64,000 nucleotides of DNA from the NCBI RefSeq assembly GCF_000021725.1, contig NC_012115.1:328501-392500 (forward strand). The letters run 5' to 3'. The position numbers and the translations under genes were made by a program. The notes under the pieces were generated by a model. The model had not been told where the DNA came from. It saw only the letters and a list, made by a program, of their open reading frames with translations, and made no database searches. The stretch comes from Nautilia profundicola AmH (GTDB lineage: Bacteria > Campylobacterota > Campylobacteria > Campylobacterales > Nautiliaceae). Below are positions 42,959-60,253 of the stretch, one piece after another; position 1 is the first letter of the stretch; each line of letters opens with the position of its first letter.

Positions 42959-43050
42959 AGCTTCTCCTTTTACGAATTGAGATGAAATTATAGCATAAAG
43001 TTTAAAACTATGCTACAATAAAATATTGCAAAATGTATAAAGGCAAAAAA

Positions 43051-43863
43051 ATGACGCTTAAAAATTATCTTGAAAAGGTTTGTTACAAAGATATAGAAGA
43101 TTTAAAAGAAAAAACTCTTGCGGATTTGATTGCTTATATGTATAAGTGTGATTCATCAACATTTTATGTCGTAAGGAATAAAAAGCCTATATATATTTTT
43201 ACAAGTACAGATATGTTAGAGATATTTATGAAAAATTTACTCTCAATGAGTATAGAAGAATATATTAATAAAAACCCGAAACAGCTTAAAAAGTTATCTA
43301 TAAAAACAAATATTTTGGATGCATATTATTTTATGAGAAGTCATAAATTAAAACATATACCAATAGTTAATGAAAATGAGGAGTTGTTAGGAGAAATTTC
43401 TTTTAAAACATTAAGTTTAAAAATAGCCGATATTGTAATAAAAGATCCGTTAACAGGGCTTTTTAATCAAAAATATTTTGATGTTTTGTTAGAAGAATAT
43501 AATGAATTTAATAAACCTTTGGGCATAATTTTTGTCGAACTTAAAAATATGAATATTCTTGAAGGATTTTATGGAGCGGAAAAAATAAATGAAATAATTA
43601 AAACTTATGCCGATGCAATTAAAGAGTGTGTCAGAGAAATTGATTTTGTATTTCGTATGGGCTATAGGTTTAAAATTTTAACGTTTAATAATTTAGAAAT
43701 TACTGATAAAATAGTTAGAAGAATAAGAGAAAAATTAGAAAATACCGATTATGAAGGAATAAAAGTTTCTTTTGAAATTGCTTTTTCACATGTGCCTGAA
43801 CTTGAAGACAATGTATTAACGGCTATTGAAAGCTGTGAAAAAAAATTAATTGAAAGGGACTAA
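43051..43863 (+). CDS. CBS-type domain plus degenerate GGDEF protein
   Basis: With ATG at 43051 (after AAAGGC) the protein has 270 residues; an ATG six codons earlier is possible. Residues 20-135 resemble a CBS pair (IKTNILDAYYFMRSHKLKHI, PIVNENEELLGEISFKTLSL). From about 138 a GGDEF fold begins with DPLTGLFNQKYFDVLLEEYN, but the catalytic GGDEF loop reads FRMGYRFKILTF, lacking Gly-Gly and acid residues. It should not make cyclic-di-GMP and may be a sensor or binder. It overlaps fabH's end by 18 nt. Confidence 0.75.
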   Translation: MTLKNYLEKVCYKDIEDLKEKTLADLIAYMYKCDSSTFYVVRNKKPIYIFTSTDMLEIFMKNLLSMSIEEYINKNPKQLKKLSIKTNILDAYYFMRSHKLKHIPIVNENEELLGEISFKTLSLKIADIVIKDPLTGLFNQKYFDVLLEEYNEFNKPLGIIFVELKNMNILEGFYGAEKINEIIKTYADAIKECVREIDFVFRMGYRFKILTFNNLEITDKIVRRIREKLENTDYEGIKVSFEIAFSHVPELEDNVLTAIESCEKKLIERD

Positions 43864-47737: not shown

Positions 47738-49156
47738 TTATTTTTTTATTATTCTTTTGATTATTTTAATTATTTCTTTTTTATTAATTTTATTTTGTTT
47801 GTTGTTGTAAATGTTTTCTTCTAAATCTTTTAAGATTTTTTCTATTTCAGGATTATAAGAGTATTCCAACAGAATATTAAACAGTTCTTTTTCGTTTGCT
47901 TTTTTGATTTTTCTAATCAAATCGTCGTTTCCGGGTAATTTCAGCTTAATTAGATAGGTAAACAATATTCCTACAATTATTCCTATAACAAAAATAAGAA
48001 TCATCATAATATAATTTGTTTTAGTTTTATAAATTATTTTTTGTTTAATTTCTTTTTGAACGATATTTTTTTTAATGTTTTTGTTATGTACAGTAATAAA
48101 AAGTTTATTTGTTTTTACATCATATAATTTTCCGTCAAATGCTTTAAATTCAATCGGAGATATGACTATGTCATTATTTGAAACTACAGTGAATTCTTTT
48201 GTGTATGTACCGCAAAGTTTGCCGTTTTTTATATAAGTTTTTATGTTCGGGGAATTTTCATATATAGTTGCTTTTGGAATGTTGAGTTTAAAATCCGGTA
48301 AGTCATAAAAGTCTCCGCAACCTTTTATTGTAAGCGTTATTTTTACCGGTTCGTTGGCCTGAACTTCCGTTGTATCAGCACTGAATTTTGCTTTAAATTT
48401 TCCATATACACTATTTTGAGGTATTGCCGATACATTAATGTCGACTTCGTTTGAAAATATGTTTGTATACTTTAACGATGCCGTTACAAGATTAAAAAAC
48501 GGATCGTTAAAAGGTGTTTCTTTACTTAAATATCCCACTTTCGCCAATATAGGTCCTATTTTATAATTTCCGGCTTTTTGTGGAATAAGTAAAAAAGAAT
48601 ATTGTGTTACGTTAAATCCGTCTTTGGCGTATTCTTTTTTTGAAATCTGTTTTGTAATAAAATCATTAAAGTTCGGTTTTTGTATTTCTATACTTTGCGG
48701 AGATGTGCCTTCTTTTTGGAAAAACTGAATATTGAATATTACCGGCTCTCCTATGTAAACCTTTGTTTTATTTACCGATAATTTTAGTTTAAAATCTCCG
48801 TTTTTACTCTCTTTAGGTTTTGTAACGGTTATTTTTACGGGTTTTGTTTTGTATGTTTTACCGTCAACTTCTACATCAAACGAAGGAATCGTTACACTTT
48901 TTGTCGGAAAAAATATATAGCTTTTTGAAACGCTTTTTTGCATATTTCCGTTAAGAATCATAATGTTTTGAGTTACTGCGGTTCCTTGTACACGGAATCC
49001 TTCAATATCTTTAATGGAAGGGAATTTTATATCGTTACCGGCAGCTTCGATAGTAAAAACAACTTCTTCACCCGGATATACGGTTTTTTTATTAACATGT
49101 ACATTTACAAAAGCCAGTATAAATATTGGTATTAAAAGTAAAAATAATTTTTTCAT
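47738..49156 (-). CDS. BatD-like protein
   Basis: The 472-residue protein has a signal peptide, several immunoglobulin-like beta domains (VNKKTVYPGEEVVFTIEAAG; NKTKVYIGEPVIFNIQFFQK; TTEVQANEPVKITLTIKGCG, which includes the DLP-type region) and one membrane helix near residue 395 (IMMILIFVIGIIVGILFTYL). BatD proteins belong to the aerotolerance operon. It is last in this seven-gene operon and overlaps its neighbour by 4 nt. Confidence 0.87.
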   Translation of the reverse strand: MKKLFLLLIPIFILAFVNVHVNKKTVYPGEEVVFTIEAAGNDIKFPSIKDIEGFRVQGTAVTQNIMILNGNMQKSVSKSYIFFPTKSVTIPSFDVEVDGKTYKTKPVKITVTKPKESKNGDFKLKLSVNKTKVYIGEPVIFNIQFFQKEGTSPQSIEIQKPNFNDFITKQISKKEYAKDGFNVTQYSFLLIPQKAGNYKIGPILAKVGYLSKETPFNDPFFNLVTASLKYTNIFSNEVDINVSAIPQNSVYGKFKAKFSADTTEVQANEPVKITLTIKGCGDFYDLPDFKLNIPKATIYENSPNIKTYIKNGKLCGTYTKEFTVVSNNDIVISPIEFKAFDGKLYDVKTNKLFITVHNKNIKKNIVQKEIKQKIIYKTKTNYIMMILIFVIGIIVGILFTYLIKLKLPGNDDLIRKIKKANEKELFNILLEYSYNPEIEKILKDLEENIYNNKQNKINKKEIIKIIKRIIKK

Positions 49157-49893
49157 TCGTTTCCTTTAAGTGGTATTAGCAATGTATTGAATTTAAGAGA
49201 TTTTATCTGTTTTTCGTAAAATTTCATTCTGATATCGCTTGTGTTTGTTTCTTTTGTTTTTACGAATTCTTTTTTTTCTATTTTTTTATTGAAAGGTTTT
49301 TTGTTTTTATTCGCTTTTTCATCTTTGCTGTTGTTTTGTTTTTTATCTGTTTTTTTGTTTTGCTTGTTTTGATTTTTGTTTTGGTTATTCTGTTTGTTGT
49401 TTTGCTGTTTATTTTTTTTGTTCTGTTTTTTGTTGTTTTGTTTTTTATTGCCGTTTTTGGTGTTCTTTTTATTTTGTTTGTTGTTTTTGTTTTGTTTGTT
49501 TTTATTTTTTTGCTTTTTCAATAATTTTTCAATAACTTTTAAGTTATATTCGGCATCTTTGTCTTTTTTTATTTTAAGCGCTTTTTTATATGATTCGATT
49601 GCTTTTATATATTCTCCGCTAAGTGCATAAGCGTTTCCGAGATTATAATATTTTTGAAATTGTAAATCTTTTTTGTTAATTTTATTGTAAAGAGCGATGG
49701 CCTTTTTGTATCTTCCGGCTTTATAGTATGCGTTTGCGGCATTGTAAAGGGCTTTTTGTGAATTTAGTTTCAAATATTCTTCGGCTGCGAGGAGATATTG
49801 TTTGTTTTTATAAAATTCATCCGCTTTTTTAATCGTAAAATAATCAAAAGCAAACAGATTTACAACAAATAAAAATATCAAAAGTTTTTTCAT
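49153..49893 (-). CDS. TPR protein of the Bat operon with a Lys/Asn/Gln tract
   Basis: The 246-residue protein has a signal peptide, two to three TPR motifs at residues 20-125 (LYNAANAYYKAGRYKKAIAL; YYNLGNAYALSGEYIKAIES), then a tract of about 60 residues (126-188) made almost only of Lys, Asn and Gln, and a short conserved end. It corresponds to BatC/BatE. The tract is coded by AAA/AAC/CAA codons and may be unstable in length. Confidence 0.85.
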   Translation of the reverse strand: MKKLLIFLFVVNLFAFDYFTIKKADEFYKNKQYLLAAEEYLKLNSQKALYNAANAYYKAGRYKKAIALYNKINKKDLQFQKYYNLGNAYALSGEYIKAIESYKKALKIKKDKDAEYNLKVIEKLLKKQKNKNKQNKNNKQNKKNTKNGNKKQNNKKQNKKNKQQNNKQNNQNKNQNKQNKKTDKKQNNSKDEKANKNKKPFNKKIEKKEFVKTKETNTSDIRMKFYEKQIKSLKFNTLLIPLKGNE

Positions 49894-50687
49894 TTGATTC
49901 TCCTAATTGGAAAGAATATCACAAAAAATAAAATCAGGATACCCATTGCCAAAGGATAATAGAAAAGTTCGGTTTTGTCTTTGATTTTGATTTCTTTACT
50001 TTTGCTGGCGTTTAACAATTTGGCTAACTGTTTAAGATTTTCGTTTGAATAACTTGCATTAAATATATTTTCACCCTCTAAAGGCTGTTTTGAACAGAAA
50101 TATACGAAAATATTGTTACTTTTAGGTATATACGGATTGGAAGTAAAAATAACGATTTTCGGATTTTTAACCAAATTTTTAGCAGACGCTATCATGTTTT
50201 CGATATCGCTTGTGGGCGTTCTTTTTAAATCTTTTACGTCTGTATGGTCAAGAAGATACGCAAGAGAAGAGTAATCTTTGGTCGGAGGCGATATCAGGTA
50301 TGAGTTTTTATCAAATAAAATCAAAGCCGTGTTTTGTGCGTTTAAAAGTTTAAGAAGTGTTTTGATTTTTGTTTTGGCGAATTCAAGTCTGTTCGGGTAC
50401 AAGTCTTTTTTATCCATTTCAAGACTTATATCCAGTGATATTACAAGATTTTGCACAGGGGCTTTGATGGTAATGTATCCGTTGTTTATAATAGGTCTTG
50501 CCAGAGCCAAAACGAATAAAACATAGCCTGCAATCAATAAATAAAATTTAATTTTTTTGGATATTTTACCTTTTAGGACAATTTTTTTTGCCACTTCTTT
50601 TGAAAAAGGAAGGTTTTTACTTTTTACCAAAAAGAAAACAGGTATTGCCAAAAATGCTAAAAACGCATATAAATTTAGAAATTCCAT
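49890..50687 (-). CDS. BatB-like von Willebrand A-type membrane protein
   Basis: A 265-residue protein with membrane helices at both ends (LNLYAFLAFLAIPVFFLV; YLLIAGYVLFVLALARPI; near residue 245) and a von Willebrand A domain between. The metal site is degenerate: LVISLDISLEMDKKDLYPNR lacks the second Ser of DxSxS, and the TDG loop is VIFTSNPYI. It probably does not bind metal like its neighbour BatA. Confidence 0.8.
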   Translation of the reverse strand: MEFLNLYAFLAFLAIPVFFLVKSKNLPFSKEVAKKIVLKGKISKKIKFYLLIAGYVLFVLALARPIINNGYITIKAPVQNLVISLDISLEMDKKDLYPNRLEFAKTKIKTLLKLLNAQNTALILFDKNSYLISPPTKDYSSLAYLLDHTDVKDLKRTPTSDIENMIASAKNLVKNPKIVIFTSNPYIPKSNNIFVYFCSKQPLEGENIFNASYSNENLKQLAKLLNASKSKEIKIKDKTELFYYPLAMGILILFFVIFFPIRRIK

Positions 50688-51541
50688 ATGTTTTTCCTAT
50701 ATTGGTATAGATATATCAAAAACAGTATCAGTGCTAAAAACAGTGGATAGGAAAAATAGTATTCGTTTAATATCTGTATATTTGATTTTATATTGGATTT
50801 TGTCAGTTTATTGATATCGCTGTAAATTTTTTTCAAATCCTCAAGTGAAGATGCTATATAAAATTTACCGTTTGTTTCTTTCGATATTTTTTTAAGTACA
50901 CTCAAATCCGCATCTCCACCGATTGCTATTGAGTAAACCTTTATATGCTCTTTTTTTAGTTTTTTTATTACCACATCAAGAGGTGTAATACTCATATTGT
51001 CCATTCCGTCTGTAAGTAAAATTATTATTTTTTCACCGTTTGCGTTTTTAAAAAGGTTTGATGATAAAAAGAGCGCATCGTATATGGCGGTTTTTCCTCC
51101 GGCGATTGATACGTAAATTCTTTTTAATATATCTTCAAACGTTTTTTTATCAAATGTAAGGGGCGATGCTATGTATGCGATATTCCCGAAAACGACAAGT
51201 CCCAACGCGTCGTTTTTTCTTTTTTTGGCGAAATCCAAACTCACGGCTTTAGCCGCGTCGATTTTGTTAAATTCGGCCATAGATCCGCTTGTATCAAGGT
51301 CTATTACGATATTGTAACCTTTTTTATGGGTGTTTGTGATGATTTTACTTTTTACCGGAGATGCTAAAGCTACGGATAAAAAGAAAATAATAAAAAATTC
51401 CAAAAGAGAAAACCTGTTTTTGGATTTTTGAAAAATATGAGCGTTTGGAAAAATGATTCTGTCATCTTCGGAGCTGAAAAAATATTTTAATATTAAATAT
51501 AAAACAGGAATTATTAAAAACAGAGGATATTCGAAGCTCAT
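50675..51541 (-). CDS. BatA-like von Willebrand A-type membrane protein
   Basis: The 288-residue protein has membrane helices at both termini and a complete metal-ion site: NIVIDLDTSGSMAEFNKIDA (DxSxS), GGKTAIYDALFLSS (Thr) and IILLTDGMDNMSITP (Asp). It is the intact partner of BatB, whose start lies 13 nt inside this gene's 3' end. Bat proteins act together at the inner membrane in stress tolerance. Confidence 0.9.
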   Translation of the reverse strand: MSFEYPLFLIIPVLYLILKYFFSSEDDRIIFPNAHIFQKSKNRFSLLEFFIIFFLSVALASPVKSKIITNTHKKGYNIVIDLDTSGSMAEFNKIDAAKAVSLDFAKKRKNDALGLVVFGNIAYIASPLTFDKKTFEDILKRIYVSIAGGKTAIYDALFLSSNLFKNANGEKIIILLTDGMDNMSITPLDVVIKKLKKEHIKVYSIAIGGDADLSVLKKISKETNGKFYIASSLEDLKKIYSDINKLTKSNIKSNIQILNEYYFSYPLFLALILFLIYLYQYRKNIWNF

Positions 51542-51903
51542 TTTAAATCCCCGATAAATTTTTTTATTTTGTTGATTGTTTCACTCTCCAAGTTATCCAC
51601 TTTCGGTTTGTATTTGTATTTTTCAAGCTCTTTTACTATTTCTTCATAAAACTTTCTGTTTTCGTCGTTAAGGAAATATTTGGCGTATTCGGTAAATCCG
51701 TAGGCCGTTTTTTTAGAATCGGAAAAATCAAGGTTTTTTAATTTTATTAAATAAGGGTTTGGTCTTTTGTTTTTGAAAAATTTAAAAATTAAATAAATTA
51801 TCAAAACAAAAGCCAAAACCGCTAAAAAAATAAAAATATAAAACTGATAATCTATAATTTCCGCATTCGGTTTTATATCTTTTAGTTGTTTTAGAAGATC
51901 CAT
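51538..51903 (-). CDS. DUF4381-like membrane protein of the Bat operon
   Basis: A 121-residue protein with one N-terminal helix (FYIFIFLAVLAFVLIIYLIF) and a cytoplasmic tail (RKFYEEIVKELEKYKYKPKV). Size, topology and place between DUF58 and batA fit DUF4381, although similarity is low. It overlaps batA by 4 nt. Confidence 0.65.
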   Translation of the reverse strand: MDLLKQLKDIKPNAEIIDYQFYIFIFLAVLAFVLIIYLIFKFFKNKRPNPYLIKLKNLDFSDSKKTAYGFTEYAKYFLNDENRKFYEEIVKELEKYKYKPKVDNLESETINKIKKFIGDLK

Positions 51904-51905
51904 CT

Positions 51906-52709
51906 TTACCTCACGAGCTTTATTAGTTTATGAATAGGCTCTTCATCGGTATAAATTTTTGTATAAGGGATTTTATGTTTTTTACACTGTGTTATAAGAG
52001 CCTTATCTATTTTATTGATATGTTTTTTTAATTTTTTAACGGTTGAATTTGTAAAATTAACGTTTATGGAATTTAAATTGACAGGGTCGACTATTTCCGT
52101 ATATCCTTTGAATTTAGGGTCTTCTTCAAATCTGTCTCTTACGTTTATTATGTATGTTTCGTGTTTTAGCGTATTAATTTCAACAGGCTTTAAAAAATCC
52201 CCGATTATGAAAAGAAGGGACTTTTTAAAACTGTTTAAAAAATCGATATCTTTTTGTGTGTAGTCCTCTTCTAAATATTCGGTTTTTAATGTATATTCCA
52301 CGAAAGAATATACGCTTTTTTTGTTTTTGGTGGGTTTGAAAATTTTTTTGTTTTTTCCAAGAAAGAGGCATTCTATTTTATTGTCTTCTTCAAGTGCGGC
52401 TATTCCCAAAGTGGCGATGATTTCCGCAATCAGTTCTGTTTTTAGTTTTCTGCTTCCGAAATAGAGTGTTCCGCTTTTTAAAACGGCAATGATGATTCTA
52501 AGTTCCCTCTCTTCGTCGTATTCTTTTACAAGAGGTTTATTTATTTTAGCGGATACTTTCCAGTCGATTTTTTTAGAATCTTCTCCGTATACGTATTCCC
52601 TGAATTCTTTAAAATCAAGGCCGCTACCTTTGAATTTGGACAGGTTTCTCCCAAGCAGGTTTCCGAAAATTCTTTTTTTTGTTTTGATTATTATCGCGTT
52701 TGTTTTCAT
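51906..52709 (-). CDS. DUF58 protein (MoxR-associated)
   Basis: A 267-residue protein with the family signature GSGLDFKEFREYVYGEDSKK IDWKVSAKINKP in two parts around residues 28-60, YDEERELRIIIAVLKSG as the degenerate vWA strand, and LLFIIGDFLKP. DUF58 proteins pair with MoxR ATPases. It overlaps moxR by 4 nt. Confidence 0.9.
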   Translation of the reverse strand: MKTNAIIIKTKKRIFGNLLGRNLSKFKGSGLDFKEFREYVYGEDSKKIDWKVSAKINKPLVKEYDEERELRIIIAVLKSGTLYFGSRKLKTELIAEIIATLGIAALEEDNKIECLFLGKNKKIFKPTKNKKSVYSFVEYTLKTEYLEEDYTQKDIDFLNSFKKSLLFIIGDFLKPVEINTLKHETYIINVRDRFEEDPKFKGYTEIVDPVNLNSINVNFTNSTVKKLKKHINKIDKALITQCKKHKIPYTKIYTDEEPIHKLIKLVR

Positions 52710-53638
52710 GGTATGTCAATCGCCTTGATTACGTCGTTGATTACTTTATCTACTGTTACTTCGTCGATTTCCGCTTTATAATTTAAAATAATTCTGTGTC
52801 TTAAAACGTCTTTTGCCACTTTTATAATATCAAGCGGGGTTACATAGTCTTTATTTTGTATCATGGCGTATGCTTTGGAGCAGTTGTACATGGCTATCGT
52901 GGCTCTCGGACTTGCTCCGTATTCTATATATTCTGCGGTTTCTACACCGTATTTTTGAGGTTCTCTTGTTGCGTGAGTTATTTTGGCGATATATTTTAAA
53001 AGTTCTTCATCCATATGAATGTTGTTTAACTGTTTTTGCAGGTTTAAAATATCTTCTATCGTTGCGACTTGCTCCGGTTCTTGCGAGTTTTGCGCTTTTA
53101 CTATTAAAATTTCTTCTTCTAAAGTGTTATACGTTACGTTTATTTTCATAATAAACCTGTCAAGCTGTGCTTCGGGAAGAGGATAAGTACCTTCCTGTTC
53201 AATCGGATTTTGTGTGGCTATAACCAAAAAAGGAGGGGTCAGTTTAAATGTTTCGTTTGCGATAGTAACCTGCATCTCCTGCATGACTTCCAAAAGCGCA
53301 CTTTGGACTTTTGCCGGGGCTCTGTTGATTTCATCCGCTAAAAGCAGGTTTGTAAAAACGGGACCTTTTTTTATTTCAAATTCATTTGTTTTAGGATTGT
53401 AAATTTCAATTCCCGTAATATCGCTCGGAAGCAAATCCGGAGTAAACTGAACTCTTTTAAAATCAAGTCCTATCGTTTTTGCCAATGTTAAAACACTTTT
53501 TGTTTTCGCAATTCCCGGAACACCTTCAACCAATAAATGGCCGCCCGTTATTAATGAAATCAGCATGGAATCTATTAAATGCTCGTGGCCTATTATAACT
53601 TTTGATATTTCTTGTTTGATATTTTGAAGTACCTGCAT
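52706..53638 (-). CDS. MoxR family AAA ATPase
   Basis: From the ATG behind AGAGGTAAAT the protein has 310 residues; the frame is open ten codons further. Walker A is VEGVPGIAKTKSVLTLA, Walker B NLLLADEINRAPAKVQSALL, with the MoxR-specific IATQNPIEQEGTYPLPEAQL and LDRFIMKINV. It heads the Bat operon and likely remodels the vWA proteins. Confidence 0.93.
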   Translation of the reverse strand: MQVLQNIKQEISKVIIGHEHLIDSMLISLITGGHLLVEGVPGIAKTKSVLTLAKTIGLDFKRVQFTPDLLPSDITGIEIYNPKTNEFEIKKGPVFTNLLLADEINRAPAKVQSALLEVMQEMQVTIANETFKLTPPFLVIATQNPIEQEGTYPLPEAQLDRFIMKINVTYNTLEEEILIVKAQNSQEPEQVATIEDILNLQKQLNNIHMDEELLKYIAKITHATREPQKYGVETAEYIEYGASPRATIAMYNCSKAYAMIQNKDYVTPLDIIKVAKDVLRHRIILNYKAEIDEVTVDKVINDVIKAIDIP

Positions 53639-53790
53639 ATTTACCTCTTTTTTTATTTTATAATACATTAAATGGGTTAAAAATAAGTGAAAAATGAAAA
53701 AAATATTTTTATTGTGTAAAAAGGTGGAGATTTATATTTCAAATTTATTTAATATTCAATAATGTATAATACTAATAAAAAAGGTATGGT

Positions 53791-54225: not shown

Positions 54226-56390
54226 TTTTAAAAGTTTTCAGCACCAAAAGAGAAATCAGAGAATTCGTAAAAAACCACAATAACCGGTTTTTACCGAAAT
54301 TAACAACAATAGGGGAATTTTTAGACAAATGTATAATAGTTAAAAACTCTTCTTTGATTGATAACGATTTAAAAAAGATTTATCTATATAAAGCGCTTGA
54401 AAAAATAAATATAGAAAAATTGGGACTTAAGAAAGACTTTTTGAATTTTTTTAAAAACAGCGAGTTTGTACTTTCTTTTTTTAACGAAATATTTTTGGAA
54501 AAAAGAAGAATTGAAGATATTGAGCTTGCCGATACGTATCTGGAATATGCAGAGCACTTGGAAGTTTTGAAAAATCTTTATTATGAATATAAATCGCTTC
54601 TTCAAAAGGATGGTTTGTATGATAAAACCACAATGGATGATTATGAAATAAACGAGAAATTTTTTAAAGATTTAAGCAGGGTTGAAATATTTTTAAGCGG
54701 GTATTTGCCCAAGCTTGATTTGGAGATTATAAAGAATATTCCTGTTGAGGTTGAAATAAATTTTAGGGTTACACCTTTTAATAAAACACTTATTTCAAAA
54801 ATGTTCGGTGATTTTAAAGAGGGTGAATACAGGTTTGATCTGCATAAAAACAATGTGATTGAATATAAACCTTTGAATACTCCGAAAAATATAGAAACAG
54901 AGCATTTTTCCAGCAGGATAAACGAAGCTTCTTTTGTGTTTGCGAGTATTGAAGAGATGATACAAGAGGGCATAAAACCTGAAAATATTGCGGTTATTTT
55001 GCCGGATGAGAGTTTTAGCGAATATTTGAGGGTTTTGGATATTCATAATAATCTCAATTTCGCTATGGGTGATAGCTTTGTCAAATCGGATATTTATATA
55101 TTGCTTGAGGCTATTTATAAGTATCTGAGTGAAAAAGACGAAGTTTCTTTTAAAAAAGCAAAAGAAAAAATAAAAGAATTTGAAAAAATTAACGACTTTA
55201 ATGAAATATTAAACTTCGTGCTTAAAAACTCAAATATGAAAGATAGAAAACTGTTAGACGAAGAAATATATAAAATCTCAAGGTTAAACGAGCTTAAAAA
55301 TTTTTCAAAAGAAGAGATACTCCATTTTCTGCTTGAAAGATTTAAAAATCTGACGTTTGACGACGTAGCTGGTGGAAAAGTTACCGTTATGGGTGTGCTT
55401 GAGAGCAGGGGAATGAAATACGAAGGTGCGGTTATTGTTGATTTTAACGACGAGTATGTTCCGAATGTAAGCGATAAAGATTACTTTTTAAATTCTATAA
55501 TCAGAAAAAACGCATTGCTTCCTACAAGAAAAGACAAAGAATCTTTGCAAAAAAACTATTATTACAATATTTTGCTAAACGCTAAAAAAGTAAAAATTGC
55601 GTATGTTAAAAACGAGGAAAAGGAACCGAGCAGGTTTTTATATGAACTGGGGCTAAGCTTCGGTGAGAACAGGGATGAATACTATAGCGAAGCCGTATAT
55701 AAAATATCAAAACCAAACTTTTACGAATATAATGAAAGATTTGAAAAGCCTGAAATTTTAACACCTACCAAATTAAAAACACTGCTTGAGTGTCCGATGA
55801 AATATTATTTTTCATATGTTTTGAATATTAAAAACGACGATGAAAAAGAGTATTTCGGAAGTAAGCTGCATAACGTATTGCAGGAAGTTTTAAAGCAAAA
55901 ACCGAGATCTCCCGAAGATTATTACAACCGAATAATGCAAAAACTACTCAGTAACGTTTCCAAAAAAGAGTATTTCGAAATAAAATCAAACTGGGATGAA
56001 AAAATTAAACAGTTTGCCTACAGGGATTTTGAAGAACTGAGTGATAAAGTTTATACGGAGGTTTCTCTGCCGAATAAGAAATACAAAAACTTCTTACTCC
56101 AAGCAAGGGCAGACAGAATTATAGGCAATAAAATATATGATTATAAAACATCATCAAAACAAGATTATTTAAAAGATTTAACTCAAGCCGAGTTTTATAA
56201 ATACCTGATGCCTGATGCCGAAATTTATTTTTGGGATATAAATACATCTCAGCTTATAAAAGTGGATCCCGCTATTAAAAAACTTGAAGAAAAAATAGAT
56301 TCGATTGAATATATTACAAAAAGAGCGGAAGAGAAAGATAAGTGTAAATATTGTGAATACAAGTTTGCGTGTTTACACTTTGAATCTTGA
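54222..56390 (+). CDS. addB: AddB-like PD-(D/E)XK nuclease/helicase-like subunit
   Basis: A 722-residue protein with a helicase-like body lacking Walker A (the inactive helicase of AddB), including [20 protein letters not shown]. The C-terminal nuclease shows [18 protein letters not shown] (D and D-Y-K). Four cysteines, one in [10 protein letters not shown] and three in [10 protein letters not shown], should hold an Fe-S cluster. With AddA, outside this window, it processes broken DNA ends. It follows the lipoprotein gene with 4-nt overlap. Confidence 0.88.
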
Positions 56391-57545
56391 AACTTCTTTT
56401 TGAAGTTTTTCGAAAGTGTCTTTGAGCATTTGTGTAATTTTAGTAATAGAATTGGCGATAGAGACATTCTTAGTTGATATATCGGTAAGTTTTTCCGTAT
56501 GTGTCATAAGCTGTTTTGCTTCAAAAGCCATAATAGTTACATTTTTGGTAGCGTCTTTGGCGAAAGAAATATTGTCTTTATTCATTTTTAAAATTTGTTC
56601 AAGCTGTTCTTTAATATTGTTTGTATGAGAAGCTAATATATTCATTTTTTCGGAATTTTTATTAATTTCATTGGATGTTAAATCTATTGTTTGGGTAATA
56701 TTTTTAATGATTGTTTCTATATTTACCAGTGAATTGGCACTTTCTTCCGCAAGCTTTCTAACTTCATCCGCAACTACGGCAAAACCTCTCCCATGTTCAC
56801 CTGCACGTGCCGCTTCAATTGCTGCGTTTAATGCTAAAAGTTCAGTTTGTTCTGTTATGCTTGAGATGATTTTTAAAACATTTTTAATTTCTTCAGTTTG
56901 TGAGTTTAGATTGTGTAGCAGCTCATTTAATTCTTTTTCTTTCGAGTTTATTTGAATGATTTCGTTTGTTGTTTCTATTAAAGAGTTACTAAAACTTTCT
57001 AAAAATTCCGCAGTTTTAATCAAAGTGTTTGTTGTTGATGCAACTGAAGCCTCGGTTTTGTCCAAATGTTTTGAAAGAGTATCAGATATTTTGGAAATTT
57101 CTCCGGCTTCAATATCTGTTTGATGAATTGTTTCTTTAAGGTTTTTAATAATTGTTTCAAGTTCTTTAGTGTTTTTCGAGACAATATTGCTTGATTTTTT
57201 AATATCAATTATAACTTCTCTTACATTATTGATAAATTTATTAATATAATCCGCAGCAAGTTTTATTTCATTTTGTTGTTTTATTTGTATTTGTTTTGTT
57301 AAATCCCCGTCACCTTCGCTTAATTCTTTTGAAATTGAAATGTACTCTTCGATTGGAGCAATTACATAATATTTTAATAGATAATAAGCTGCGGTTTGTA
57401 TTACTATTGCAATAATTAAATGTTCTGCAGCAGTTGATAAAAATTCATTTGGAGCCGTAAAATATGTATATAGTAATAATATAAAACTTGTTAATATATT
57501 TATGCCTAATAATTTGACATTAAAATCTTTTATGATCGAATGCAT
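56373..57545 (-). CDS. Methyl-accepting chemotaxis protein without periplasmic sensor
   Basis: The 390-residue protein has two adjacent membrane helices ([40 protein letters not shown]) with only about 15 residues between them, then HAMP ([20 protein letters not shown]) and a signalling domain with the conserved tip [20 protein letters not shown]. It should sense something in the membrane or cytoplasm, or receive input from the STAS protein encoded just upstream. The start overlaps the STAS stop by one base. Confidence 0.92.
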
Positions 57546-57823
57546 TAAACTTTCCTTATTTTAAATTTATTTGTTAATTTAAGCGCTTCGAGCAATTCAA
57601 AAAGTGTGCTGTCATACACATTAATCAGTACGGCTACACCTTTGTCATTAAGTCTTAAAAGCTCTCCGATAATACTTGACGGAAGTGAGAACGATTTTAT
57701 ATTTAAAATTATTTGGGGCTCAGTTTCTTTACTTCTTAAAATTTGAAGTAATTTTTCTACATCGGTTATAGTTACAACCGGAGAATTAATATTGATTACA
57801 TTTCCTTCAATTTCCAAATTCAT
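57545..57823 (-). CDS. STAS domain protein (anti-sigma factor antagonist type)
   Basis: The 92-residue protein has a STAS-like alternation of strands and helices: [37 protein letters not shown] (with Ser-Ser where the phospho-Ser motif is expected), then [20 protein letters not shown]. It lies between a phosphatase/kinase fusion and a chemoreceptor. The assignment rests on fold pattern and neighbours. Confidence 0.75.
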
Positions 57824-57825
57824 TG

Positions 57826-59361
57826 TTAAGCCTTTAAGAAAATTTTGATAGAAGTCCCTTTTTCATTAAAAAACAAACCATATGAGAGATGTTTTATTAT
57901 TTTGATACCTCTCCCATGGTATTTTTTGTAATAAGCGTCTTTTATTTTTTGAACATCAAAACCTTCCGAGTCGTCTTGATATTCAATTTTAAGCCATTTT
58001 TCATTTTTGCTTAATTTAATTTTAGCGAAAATTTTTCTTTTTTCATCAAATTTTTTTGAAAAGTCATTCGTCTCATTAATATTTTCTTTGTTACCCACTT
58101 CAAGTACGGCGTGTTCGTATGTATTGGTAAGAATTTCGTGTAAAATTAAATGTATTTGTTCTATGTTAGGAATGTTTTGAATATAAAGCTTTTGTAAAAA
58201 ATTATCTATTTGTTCTTTTTGAAGTAACAACTTGTCTTCAAAAATTGTTTGGAAGTTTTTGTTTTCTTTGGTAATGAACACAAGACATGTGTCATCTATT
58301 TGTTTTGATTTTGCATAAAAATCTTCCATTATTTCTTTTAGAAAGGTTATTTTTGGAAAAATTTCTTTTAACCTTTTAAAATAAATCGTTTCATCATAAG
58401 GGGATTCAAATATTCCGTCGCTCGATATTAAAATTTTATTTTCCATTTTTACGGTATCGATTTGAATATCTTCAGTTGAATATCTTATAGGGTAATTATT
58501 CGCTCCCAAAATTGCGGAGGATGTTAAAATGGGAGGGTTTCCAAAATTTGCATAATGCATTTTCCCGTTTTGAATATATACGAGTGTTGCTGATAAAATT
58601 TCGTTTTCCAATAAAATTGTTTTTACATAATTAATAAAATCCTTATTTAGTTTCTCAAAATTAAAATCATTGTATTCCACAGCTTTATTGATAGAATGTT
58701 TTAAAAATGACAGTGCGTTAAACGATGTGAGTGAAGCTCCCAAACCTTTGCCCATAGCGTCTATAAGTCCTATAAAATATTCGTTTTTCGATATCTTTTT
58801 AGTGTATACAGTATCTCCGGTTAGCAAGTCTTTTGGTTTAAAATATGTTTCAAATAAAAAATTTTCATCAAAAAACATTTCAAGTTCGTTTTTCATTATT
58901 TTGTTTTGTTTTTGGTGAATTATTTTTTCCTGATATTCTTTATAGCTTAGTATTTTTTTAAAAGCTTCTTTTTTTTCTATCTCTTTTTTTATATATTTAC
59001 GTAAGGTTTTTATCATGTTTATCAATGCCTGCAAATCGGCAAAAGCAATGTTTTTTTCTAAAAAAGTATCAAAACCTAAATTCAAAGCTTTTTCTTTTAA
59101 TTCCAAAGAAGAATCGGAGGTAATCATTATTTTATATGTGTTTGGAAGAGTTTGTTTGATATTTTCAAGCACGTCAAAGCCATCTGTTTCTTCTAAATGG
59201 TAATCAATAAAAACGGCATCTATGTTGGTGTTTTCAGAAATAAAATCATAAAAATCTTTAGATTTTGTGAAAGTATATATCTCATCTAAATCCAATTTTT
59301 TTAACATTTTACCGATATAACTTAAAAACGTTTTACTGTCGTCTAAGATGGCAATTTTCAT
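57826..59361 (-). CDS. Response regulator - PP2C phosphatase - HATPase fusion
   Basis: A 511-residue protein. Residues 1-125: receiver with ILDDSKTF and Asp53 in AVFIDYHLEETDGF. About 160-375: SpoIIE/RsbU-type Ser phosphatase, with KPKDLLTGDTVY, FIGLIDAMGKGLGASLTSFN, LISSDGIFES and QIDDTCLVF. About 390-511: RsbW-type kinase with LHEILTNTYEHAV and HGRGIKIIKHL. It thus unites both opposing enzymes of a partner switch. It is first in an operon with STAS and MCP genes. Confidence 0.9.
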   Translation of the reverse strand: MKIAILDDSKTFLSYIGKMLKKLDLDEIYTFTKSKDFYDFISENTNIDAVFIDYHLEETDGFDVLENIKQTLPNTYKIMITSDSSLELKEKALNLGFDTFLEKNIAFADLQALINMIKTLRKYIKKEIEKKEAFKKILSYKEYQEKIIHQKQNKIMKNELEMFFDENFLFETYFKPKDLLTGDTVYTKKISKNEYFIGLIDAMGKGLGASLTSFNALSFLKHSINKAVEYNDFNFEKLNKDFINYVKTILLENEILSATLVYIQNGKMHYANFGNPPILTSSAILGANNYPIRYSTEDIQIDTVKMENKILISSDGIFESPYDETIYFKRLKEIFPKITFLKEIMEDFYAKSKQIDDTCLVFITKENKNFQTIFEDKLLLQKEQIDNFLQKLYIQNIPNIEQIHLILHEILTNTYEHAVLEVGNKENINETNDFSKKFDEKRKIFAKIKLSKNEKWLKIEYQDDSEGFDVQKIKDAYYKKYHGRGIKIIKHLSYGLFFNEKGTSIKIFLKA

Positions 59362-59441: not shown

Positions 59442-59475
59442 AGTGTCTGGCACTCGAATTAAAATGGTGACAGTC
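59442..59475. repeat. REP-like cores flanking the RAYT start
   Basis: AGTGTCTGGCACT is followed after 11 nt by the inverted partial copy GGTGACAGTC. The right copy ends 31 nt before the transposase start codon. TTCGA and TCGAA repeats surround the left core. Location next to the RAYT gene is typical for REP families. Confidence 0.7.
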
Positions 59476-59506: not shown

Positions 59507-60253
59507 ATGGCAAGAAAACCAAGAGTAAACGATCCCGGGTTTTATCATATAGTAAACAGAGGTGTAAACGGAGCGGAAATTTTTAATGAAAAAGAGGATT
59601 TTTTCAAATTTATGGAGCTGATGCTTAAAACGAAATATGATTATAAAGTGATTTTTCACGCATTTACAATTCTTCCTAATCATTATCATATTCTGCTTGA
59701 GACGACACTTCCGAATCTTAGTGAAGCAATGAGGTTTTTAAATTCCGCATATGCTGCATGGTATAACTATAAAACGGGAAGAGTGGGGCATTTATGGAAA
59801 GGAAGATTTGAGAGTTATATGATGTTTGACGACAATCACAGCTGGAAAGTTATTAAATATATCGAAAGAAACGCTTTGGCTTTGGGGCTTGTGGATGATA
59901 TAAAAGATTATGATTATCAATCTCTTGCTCTCAGACTTAAAAAGAATAAATTTAACGACATTATACAGGGCAGTATGATTTTCCAAAAGCCACTTGAAGA
60001 GTATATAGAATGGCTTAATAAACCTCTTGAAAAGTTTGAACTTGAAGAGATATACAATGAACCGAGAATTATTAAAGTTGACGGCGAGCTTAAAGTAATA
60101 CGTAAAAAAATAAGTGACTTTTTTGAAGAGTACGATGAGAAAAAAGATGCTATCTTAGCCGCTAAGGAAGCAGGATACAAATATACTGAAATTGCAAGAT
60201 ATTTAGGTGTAAGCAGCGGATATATAAATAAAATATTAAAAAGTGAAAAATAA
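59507..60253 (+). CDS. REP-associated tyrosine transposase (RAYT)
   Basis: A 248-residue Y1-type protein. ARKPRVNDPGFYHIVNRGVN is the start of RAYTs; ILPNHYHILLETTL contains the HUH metal site; GHLWKGRFESYMM and KVIKYIERNALALGLVDD hold the catalytic Tyr. A C-terminal helix-turn-helix (YKYTEIARYLGVSSGYINKI) is present, as in longer RAYTs. Start ATG follows AAGGAGAAAAT. No flanking IS structure is seen; the last residues KSEK come from a heptamer repeat. A terminator follows. Confidence 0.9.
   Translation: MARKPRVNDPGFYHIVNRGVNGAEIFNEKEDFFKFMELMLKTKYDYKVIFHAFTILPNHYHILLETTLPNLSEAMRFLNSAYAAWYNYKTGRVGHLWKGRFESYMMFDDNHSWKVIKYIERNALALGLVDDIKDYDYQSLALRLKKNKFNDIIQGSMIFQKPLEEYIEWLNKPLEKFELEEIYNEPRIIKVDGELKVIRKKISDFFEEYDEKKDAILAAKEAGYKYTEIARYLGVSSGYINKILKSEK

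Follow-up and report, generated by a model that had tools for sequence, protein, structure and literature searches.

Which target a partner-switching STAS protein may have in a bacterium without a recognisable sigma-B-like factor is a question raised by three adjacent minus-strand genes of Nautilia profundicola AmH. They lie in a 64,000-nucleotide stretch of the chromosome (NC_012115.1, positions 328,501 to 392,500; hereafter the window, the numbering of which is used throughout) and encode (i) a REC-PP2C-HATPase fusion protein, i.e., a bifunctional STAS phosphatase/kinase and response regulator (57826..59361; 511 aa), (ii) a single-domain protein of predicted STAS fold (57545..57823; 92 aa), and (iii) a methyl-accepting chemotaxis protein (MCP; 56373..57545; 390 aa). 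Recurrent linkage of such modules to receptor genes and a receptor patch that tracks the module point to the chemoreceptor as the target. That the STAS protein docks on this patch and biases receptor signalling is considered to have an about even chance of being correct.

In the proposed mechanism, the trio would represent a partner-switching module with the chemoreceptor as its output. The fusion protein would set the state of Ser49 in the STAS protein, the HATPase domain phosphorylating and the PP2C domain dephosphorylating it, with the phosphatase being controlled via phosphorylation of REC by a histidine kinase. One form of the STAS protein, most likely the unphosphorylated one, would bind the membrane receptor encoded by the neighbouring gene at a patch of the four-helix bundle, ~85-95 residues away from the hairpin tip. 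Docking would then shift the kinase-on/kinase-off balance of the receptor in the common F3 array, with effects on CheA and a bias in swimming.

Organization of the gene trio

The genome of N. profundicola AmH (one contig, 1,676,444 bp) encodes 11 MCPs by the present count, the same number as given in PMC2628731. The fusion and STAS genes are separated by only 2 bp, and the STAS and MCP genes overlap by a single base (TAATG). By this layout, the three genes are predicted to form one transcription unit with translational coupling; the single operon proposed in the first-pass annotation of the window is thus borne out, with all three genes in place and tightly packed. The ATG of the fusion gene is preceded by a GGAGG resembling a ribosome-binding site (read from the sequence). 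A scan of the region for sigma-70-type promoters yielded no excess over shuffled sequences and is uninformative.

The phosphatase-kinase and STAS proteins

All three domains of the fusion protein were recognised by Pfam (Response_reg, 8.9e-18; SpoIIE/PP2C, 2e-8; HATPase_c_2, 2.4e-5), the last of them below the cut-off in one Pfam scan but above it (27.9 bits) in the genome-wide scan. The REC domain (59020..59355; aa 3-114) was delimited by Pfam and residue positions, having the acidic pair D7/D8, the phospho-acceptor D53, a Ser/Thr position at about T81, and K103. In the PP2C/SpoIIE phosphatase domain (58264..58875; aa ~163-366; Pfam and alignment), the metal-binding or catalytic aspartates D183, D201, D315 and D356/D357 are invariant across 9 homologues. 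The HATPase_c_2 domain, similar to the serine kinases RsbW and SpoIIAB (57829..58218; aa 382-511; Pfam, alignment and AlphaFold2 (AF2) model), contains E409, N413, D463xSxG and an HGRG box, with E409, N413 and HGRG conserved among the aligned homologues. Kinase activity is likely but not certain, since the G1 box has Ser in place of its initial Gly.

An AF2 model of the fusion (pLDDT 86) had as best Foldseek matches RssB of Pseudomonas aeruginosa (REC-coiled-coil-PP2C) and the RsbU-RsbW part of Rv1364c of Mycobacterium tuberculosis, the PP2C domain also matching SpoIIE and SiaA. The solved parts of RssB and Rv1364c, however, never combine REC, PP2C and HATPase, and have no receptor partner. 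A separate anti-sigma kinase or a second STAS protein encoded elsewhere in the genome was considered and rejected: the sole HATPase_c_2 match above the cut-off is that of the fusion itself, hence there is no separate RsbW, and no convincing second STAS protein was found.

The 92-aa protein yielded no STAS match with Pfam and NCBIfam, and a STAS profile matched just 3 of 16 homologues, weakly. A wrong STAS assignment was nevertheless rejected, since the AF2 model (pLDDT 90.5, pTM 0.78) matches STAS structures: nearly all best PDB matches obtained with Foldseek are STAS-type antagonists of anti-sigma factors (SpoIIAA and RsbV being two of them), and SiaC also occurs among the matches. A STAS fold is accordingly a prediction from the model and the homologue alignment. 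Ser49 (codon 57679-57677), located in P-S49-S-I-I-G, is invariant across the 16 aligned homologues, in which the motif reads (P/T)-S-(S/A/N/T)-(I/V/L)-I-(G/S), and is the predicted phospho-site. It aligns with the serine of DSSGLG, the phosphorylated site of SpoIIAA. The fusion and STAS genes together provide the PP2C phosphatase, the GHKL serine kinase and the STAS antagonist of an RsbU/RsbV/RsbW-type partner-switching module, and a phosphorylation-dependent exchange of partners is predicted for the trio.

The receptor and its array class

The receptor has a strong Pfam match to MCPsignal (1.7e-30) and a weak one to HAMP, and its hydropathy profile indicates two transmembrane helices separated by a periplasmic loop of ~13 residues. 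In this loop region, F35, T38, A39, E41 and H42 are invariant across seven orthologues. The near absence of an external domain, pointed out in the first-pass annotation, therefore applies to the Nautilia receptor but not to module receptors in general, since those of the Sulfurimonas type possess a NIT sensor domain.

The hairpin tip for contact with CheA/CheW was located at 56778..56840 by alignment and by counting distances from the tip. From tip to C-terminus the module receptor comprises 141 aa, equal to six transmembrane paralogues, and the span from HAMP to tip is ~139 aa, corresponding to 20+20 heptads and thus to the 40H type. Since F3 is the only full chemosensory class in Nautilia and contains mainly 40H receptors (PMC9321776), the module receptor probably shares the single F3 array. 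The flanks of its tip (aa 230-275) differ from those of the paralogues (ITEQTE instead of IADQTN on one flank, and a divergent stretch instead of AERTQKSL on the other), and the unusual residues are largely kept in the seven Nautiliaceae orthologues; this divergence may alter coupling of the receptor to CheA/CheW.

Recurrence of the module

In the first-pass annotation, a lack of operon conservation had been named as a refutation of its reading; the survey of related genomes does not bear out such a lack. The trio is present, with a patchy distribution, in 7 of 21 Nautiliaceae genomes (including that of N. profundicola), other near-complete ones being devoid of it, and the association recurs in other families. 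The trio occurs in two sister genomes, with gene 1 being 71-72 % identical, one genome has it at a different site, beside uvrA (G012), and in another it is situated at a contig end (G009). Two further Nautiliaceae (G004, G008) harbour a module at the same site with gene 1 lacking REC; the near-complete G008 has three MCP loci, one of them inside the module.

A scan of named genomes provided 80 loci, and 84 were analyzed for gene order. An MCP gene belongs to the same-strand cluster in 50 of the 84 loci, compared to 4 of 469 genes located more than 3 places away. Adjacency by chance was rejected on this basis (p 2e-43, ignoring relatedness). Relatedness among Sulfurimonas loci inflates this p value; the argument is better carried by the occurrence of five gene orders and varied sensor domains. 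With PSW denoting the phosphatase-kinase protein, these orders are STAS-MCP-PSW (28 loci), PSW-STAS-MCP (9), MCP-PSW-STAS (5; in one of them, from a metagenome-assembled genome (MAG) of the Deferribacterales, there are two STAS genes), MCP-PSW (5, some of which are cut by contig ends) and MCP-STAS-PSW (3). The sensor regions of the linked receptors range from a short loop to NIT and dCache_3 domains.

A module-specific patch on the receptor

Residues common to the module lineages and rare in paralogous receptors are found at two places of the signalling hairpin, i.e., 88 to 84 residues before the tip (L-D-x-x-E) and 95 residues after it (K). In the Nautilia receptor, the former lies in the descending helix (57048..57065; aa 161-166, LDKTEA, with D162 and E165), the latter in the ascending helix (56508..56546; aa 334-346, including K344), where Sulfurimonas-type module receptors have the counterpart YIATKTKxL. 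Judged from residue counts, both stretches should be at about the same level along the antiparallel hairpin. The D162..E165 pair is present in 38 of 42 module receptors versus 1 of 12 paralogues, and K344 in all 42 versus again 1 of 12. Phylogenetic analysis places the module receptors on one side of the tree with weak support (SH-like approximate likelihood ratio test (SH-aLRT) 73), while the seven Nautiliaceae receptors form a solid clade.

An orthologous receptor family served as control, its mean conservation (0.647) being close to that of the module family (0.657). At the patch positions the module family reaches 0.82, 0.78, 0.74 and 0.93, the control 0.47, 0.61, 0.56 and 0.50. With YIATKTK converted to a degenerate DNA pattern, a search of 399 genomes yielded 22 matches as compared to 1 for the reversed pattern. 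Eighteen of the matches lie within MCP genes, each of these being neighboured by the gene for STAS, for the kinase or for both; in loci L206 and L217, the contig ends before the partner that is missing. The patch as a generic 40H feature was rejected, since the control family lacks these peaks and, in the 399 genomes, YIATKTK occurs in no MCP outside a module. The same patch is found in the receptors beside the modules of Thiovulum and Deferribacterales. It thus represents evidence for a dedicated partner, and the STAS protein may be this partner.

In the Nautiliaceae genome G011 (contig C7, locus L207), a Sulfurimonas-type module receptor with YIATKTK is located beside a STAS gene, and the kinase gene is split into two parts, which suggests transfer and decay.

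The proposal of the first-pass annotation that the STAS protein may act on the receptor fits the recurrent association and the patch. Extended beyond Nautilia, one may tentatively speculate, with somewhat less than even probability, on a class widespread in Campylobacterota and reaching Deferribacterota, in which a STAS protein binds a dedicated patch on the helical bundle of a transmembrane receptor and serine phosphorylation gates the array directly, with no sigma factor involved and REC being optional.

Evidence against receptor docking and alternative readings

Several observations weigh against docking of the STAS protein on the receptor. In 34 of the 84 loci no MCP gene is adjacent, some of these having other neighbours, and within the Nautiliaceae the distribution of the module is patchy. 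PAS-type cytoplasmic MCPs beside three modules (L060, L106, L134) are devoid of the patch. Most of the 18 YIATKTK matches represent one orthologous Sulfurimonas-type receptor and hence do not count as independent cases, and the signature is only partly kept in the Nautilia receptor, which reads TIMAFEAKQ at the corresponding position. Adaptation or the packing of receptors could also account for the patch. FlgM and FliA, encoded in the genome though not adjacent to the trio, are credible alternative targets of the STAS protein. Two kinds of neighbouring genes also point elsewhere: flhB adjoins the modules of two distant Campylobacterota genomes (L049, L059), constituting a second link to flagellar genes, and in two Nautiliales/Campylobacterota MAGs (L071, L073; Pfam-checked in L071 only) a gene for a bifunctional penicillin-binding protein follows the STAS gene in place of the MCP gene.

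Instead of being the output, the receptor could provide the input, signalling via CheA to REC or directly to the phosphatase-kinase protein, with the STAS protein then acting on another target. The conserved CheA/CheW hairpin tip and 40H-type length, the acceptor Asp in REC of the fusion, and the NIT and dCache_3 sensor domains on receptors of other lineages would agree with such a role. However, 16 of the 49 untruncated receptor-linked modules lack REC; discounting L116, a split gene, at least 15 remain. In two of these 15 (L106, L134), the N-terminus is far longer and may carry another input. With this number of receptor-linked modules devoid of REC, phosphotransfer from CheA to REC was rejected as the general reason for the pairing. 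In addition, 20 REC-bearing modules have no linked receptor. The near absence of an external domain in the Nautilia receptor and the location of the module-specific patch far from the tip likewise render the receptor unlikely to be the input, a direct receptor-to-phosphatase contact being a possible variant.

A further alternative concerns sigma factors. Only two proteins of the genome contain sigma-70 region 2, one RpoD-like and one FliA-like (the latter encoded next to FliM- and FlhG-like genes), and no RpoS-like or sigma-B-like protein was recognised among them. This is consistent with the statement of the first-pass annotation that Campylobacterota lack a sigma-B type factor; the step taken there from this lack to the receptor is not supported, because HsbR-HsbA of P. 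aeruginosa works through FlgM/FliA, both present here, such that a sigma target is conceivable even without sigma-B. By analogy, the unphosphorylated STAS protein could bind FlgM, or the kinase could bind FliA or RpoD, such that sigma availability alters flagellar or receptor gene expression and the receptor is merely a co-expressed motility gene. HsbR, the closest characterised three-domain fusion, acts with its STAS protein HsbA via FlgM/FliA and RpoS (PMC6482189), and flhB is located beside some modules. Inspection of the conserved neighbourhood by eye, without a profile scan, revealed no gene for FlgM or FliA, as opposed to an MCP in 50 of 84 loci, and a purely transcriptional link would not need a receptor patch that tracks the module. 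An output of this kind is regarded as quite improbable for the trio.

Control of a cyclic di-GMP (c-di-GMP) enzyme or another non-receptor partner by the STAS protein, with the MCP providing a membrane or polar location, has precedents in SiaC-SiaD (PMC9239204) and HsbA-HsbD (PMC6482189) and would suit the described richness of N. profundicola in GGDEF/EAL proteins (PMC2628731), but is very unlikely, as the module receptors keep full signalling tips and the MCP-linked modules showed no recognisable GGDEF or EAL gene among their conserved neighbours (no systematic scan being made).

Other features of the window

Two neighbours, judged from their sequence alone, are seemingly ordinary: a gene for a protein with GGDEF-like sequence (43033-43863) and a MoxR-ATPase/von Willebrand-type (Bat-like) gene cluster (47738-53668). 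A 13-bp sequence resembling repetitive extragenic palindromic (REP) elements, AGTGTCTGKCACY, has 43 copies in the genome versus 0 for the reversed control; within the window, 8 near-matches compare to 0.54 expected. One copy is located at 59442-59454, and one copy is adjoined by a gene for a REP-associated tyrosine transposase (59507-60253, plus strand), with which the counterparts at this site in two sister species share 95-96 % identity.

Relation to known systems and implications

A trio in N. profundicola AmH was already presented in PMC9239204 (mBio 2022; Fig. 4B), where an effect of the STAS protein on receptor conformation was proposed as a prediction, the paper itself stating that experimental verification is lacking. 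From its text, this example appears to be the present locus. The idea of STAS acting on the receptor is hence a rediscovery, the credit belonging to that paper, and the trio itself is no new find. The account there is brief, and its text on the trio neither assigns this MCP to a receptor class nor mentions a docking patch or operons that are REC-less or shuffled. Relative to this account, the MCP linkage in 50 of 84 loci, the REC-less modules, the 40H length class and the helix-bundle patch are new. A literature search, in which subscription papers were outside the scope, retrieved no tested STAS-receptor contact. Partner switching as such is well known, whereas a receptor output is as yet a prediction.

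The order of REC, PP2C and kinase domains together with a single STAS partner is shared with HsbR-HsbA and with CrsR-CrsA of Shewanella oneidensis. HsbA is phosphorylated on Ser56 and binds FlgM when unphosphorylated (PMC6482189). Different from the trio, the known outputs of these systems are FlgM/FliA, HsbD and RpoS, and no receptor is part of the unit as described; the likeness is one of described domain order. STAS proteins of partner switches also function in motility or biofilm formation in case of SypE-SypA of Vibrio fischeri, HmpUVW of Nostoc punctiforme and RbaV of Rhodobacter capsulatus, which differ in architecture and for which the relevant parts of PMC8256260 report no linked transmembrane chemoreceptor. 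SiaABCD of P. aeruginosa likewise comprises a PP2C phosphatase, a kinase and a STAS-fold protein with a non-sigma target reached by direct binding, but this target is a diguanylate cyclase and the phosphatase is a membrane sensor.

The N. profundicola genome also encodes two paralogous SiaA-like membrane PP2C proteins of 678 and 665 aa (L065 and L066; G000:C1 near 897872 and 1097548), each adjoined by a periplasmic binding-like protein of ~262 aa; partner switching in this organism thus has an input of another kind as well.

The patch together with the naturally occurring REC-less and shuffled operons renders STAS docking on the receptor directly testable. If correct, the receptor would join the few targets other than sigma factors that have been demonstrated for partner switches, such as the c-di-GMP enzymes SiaD and HsbD. 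Chemoreceptors are tuned by ligand binding and methylation; docking of a serine-phosphorylated STAS protein on the helix bundle would offer the cell an internal means of adjusting receptor bias, by which stress or metabolic state could override chemotaxis.

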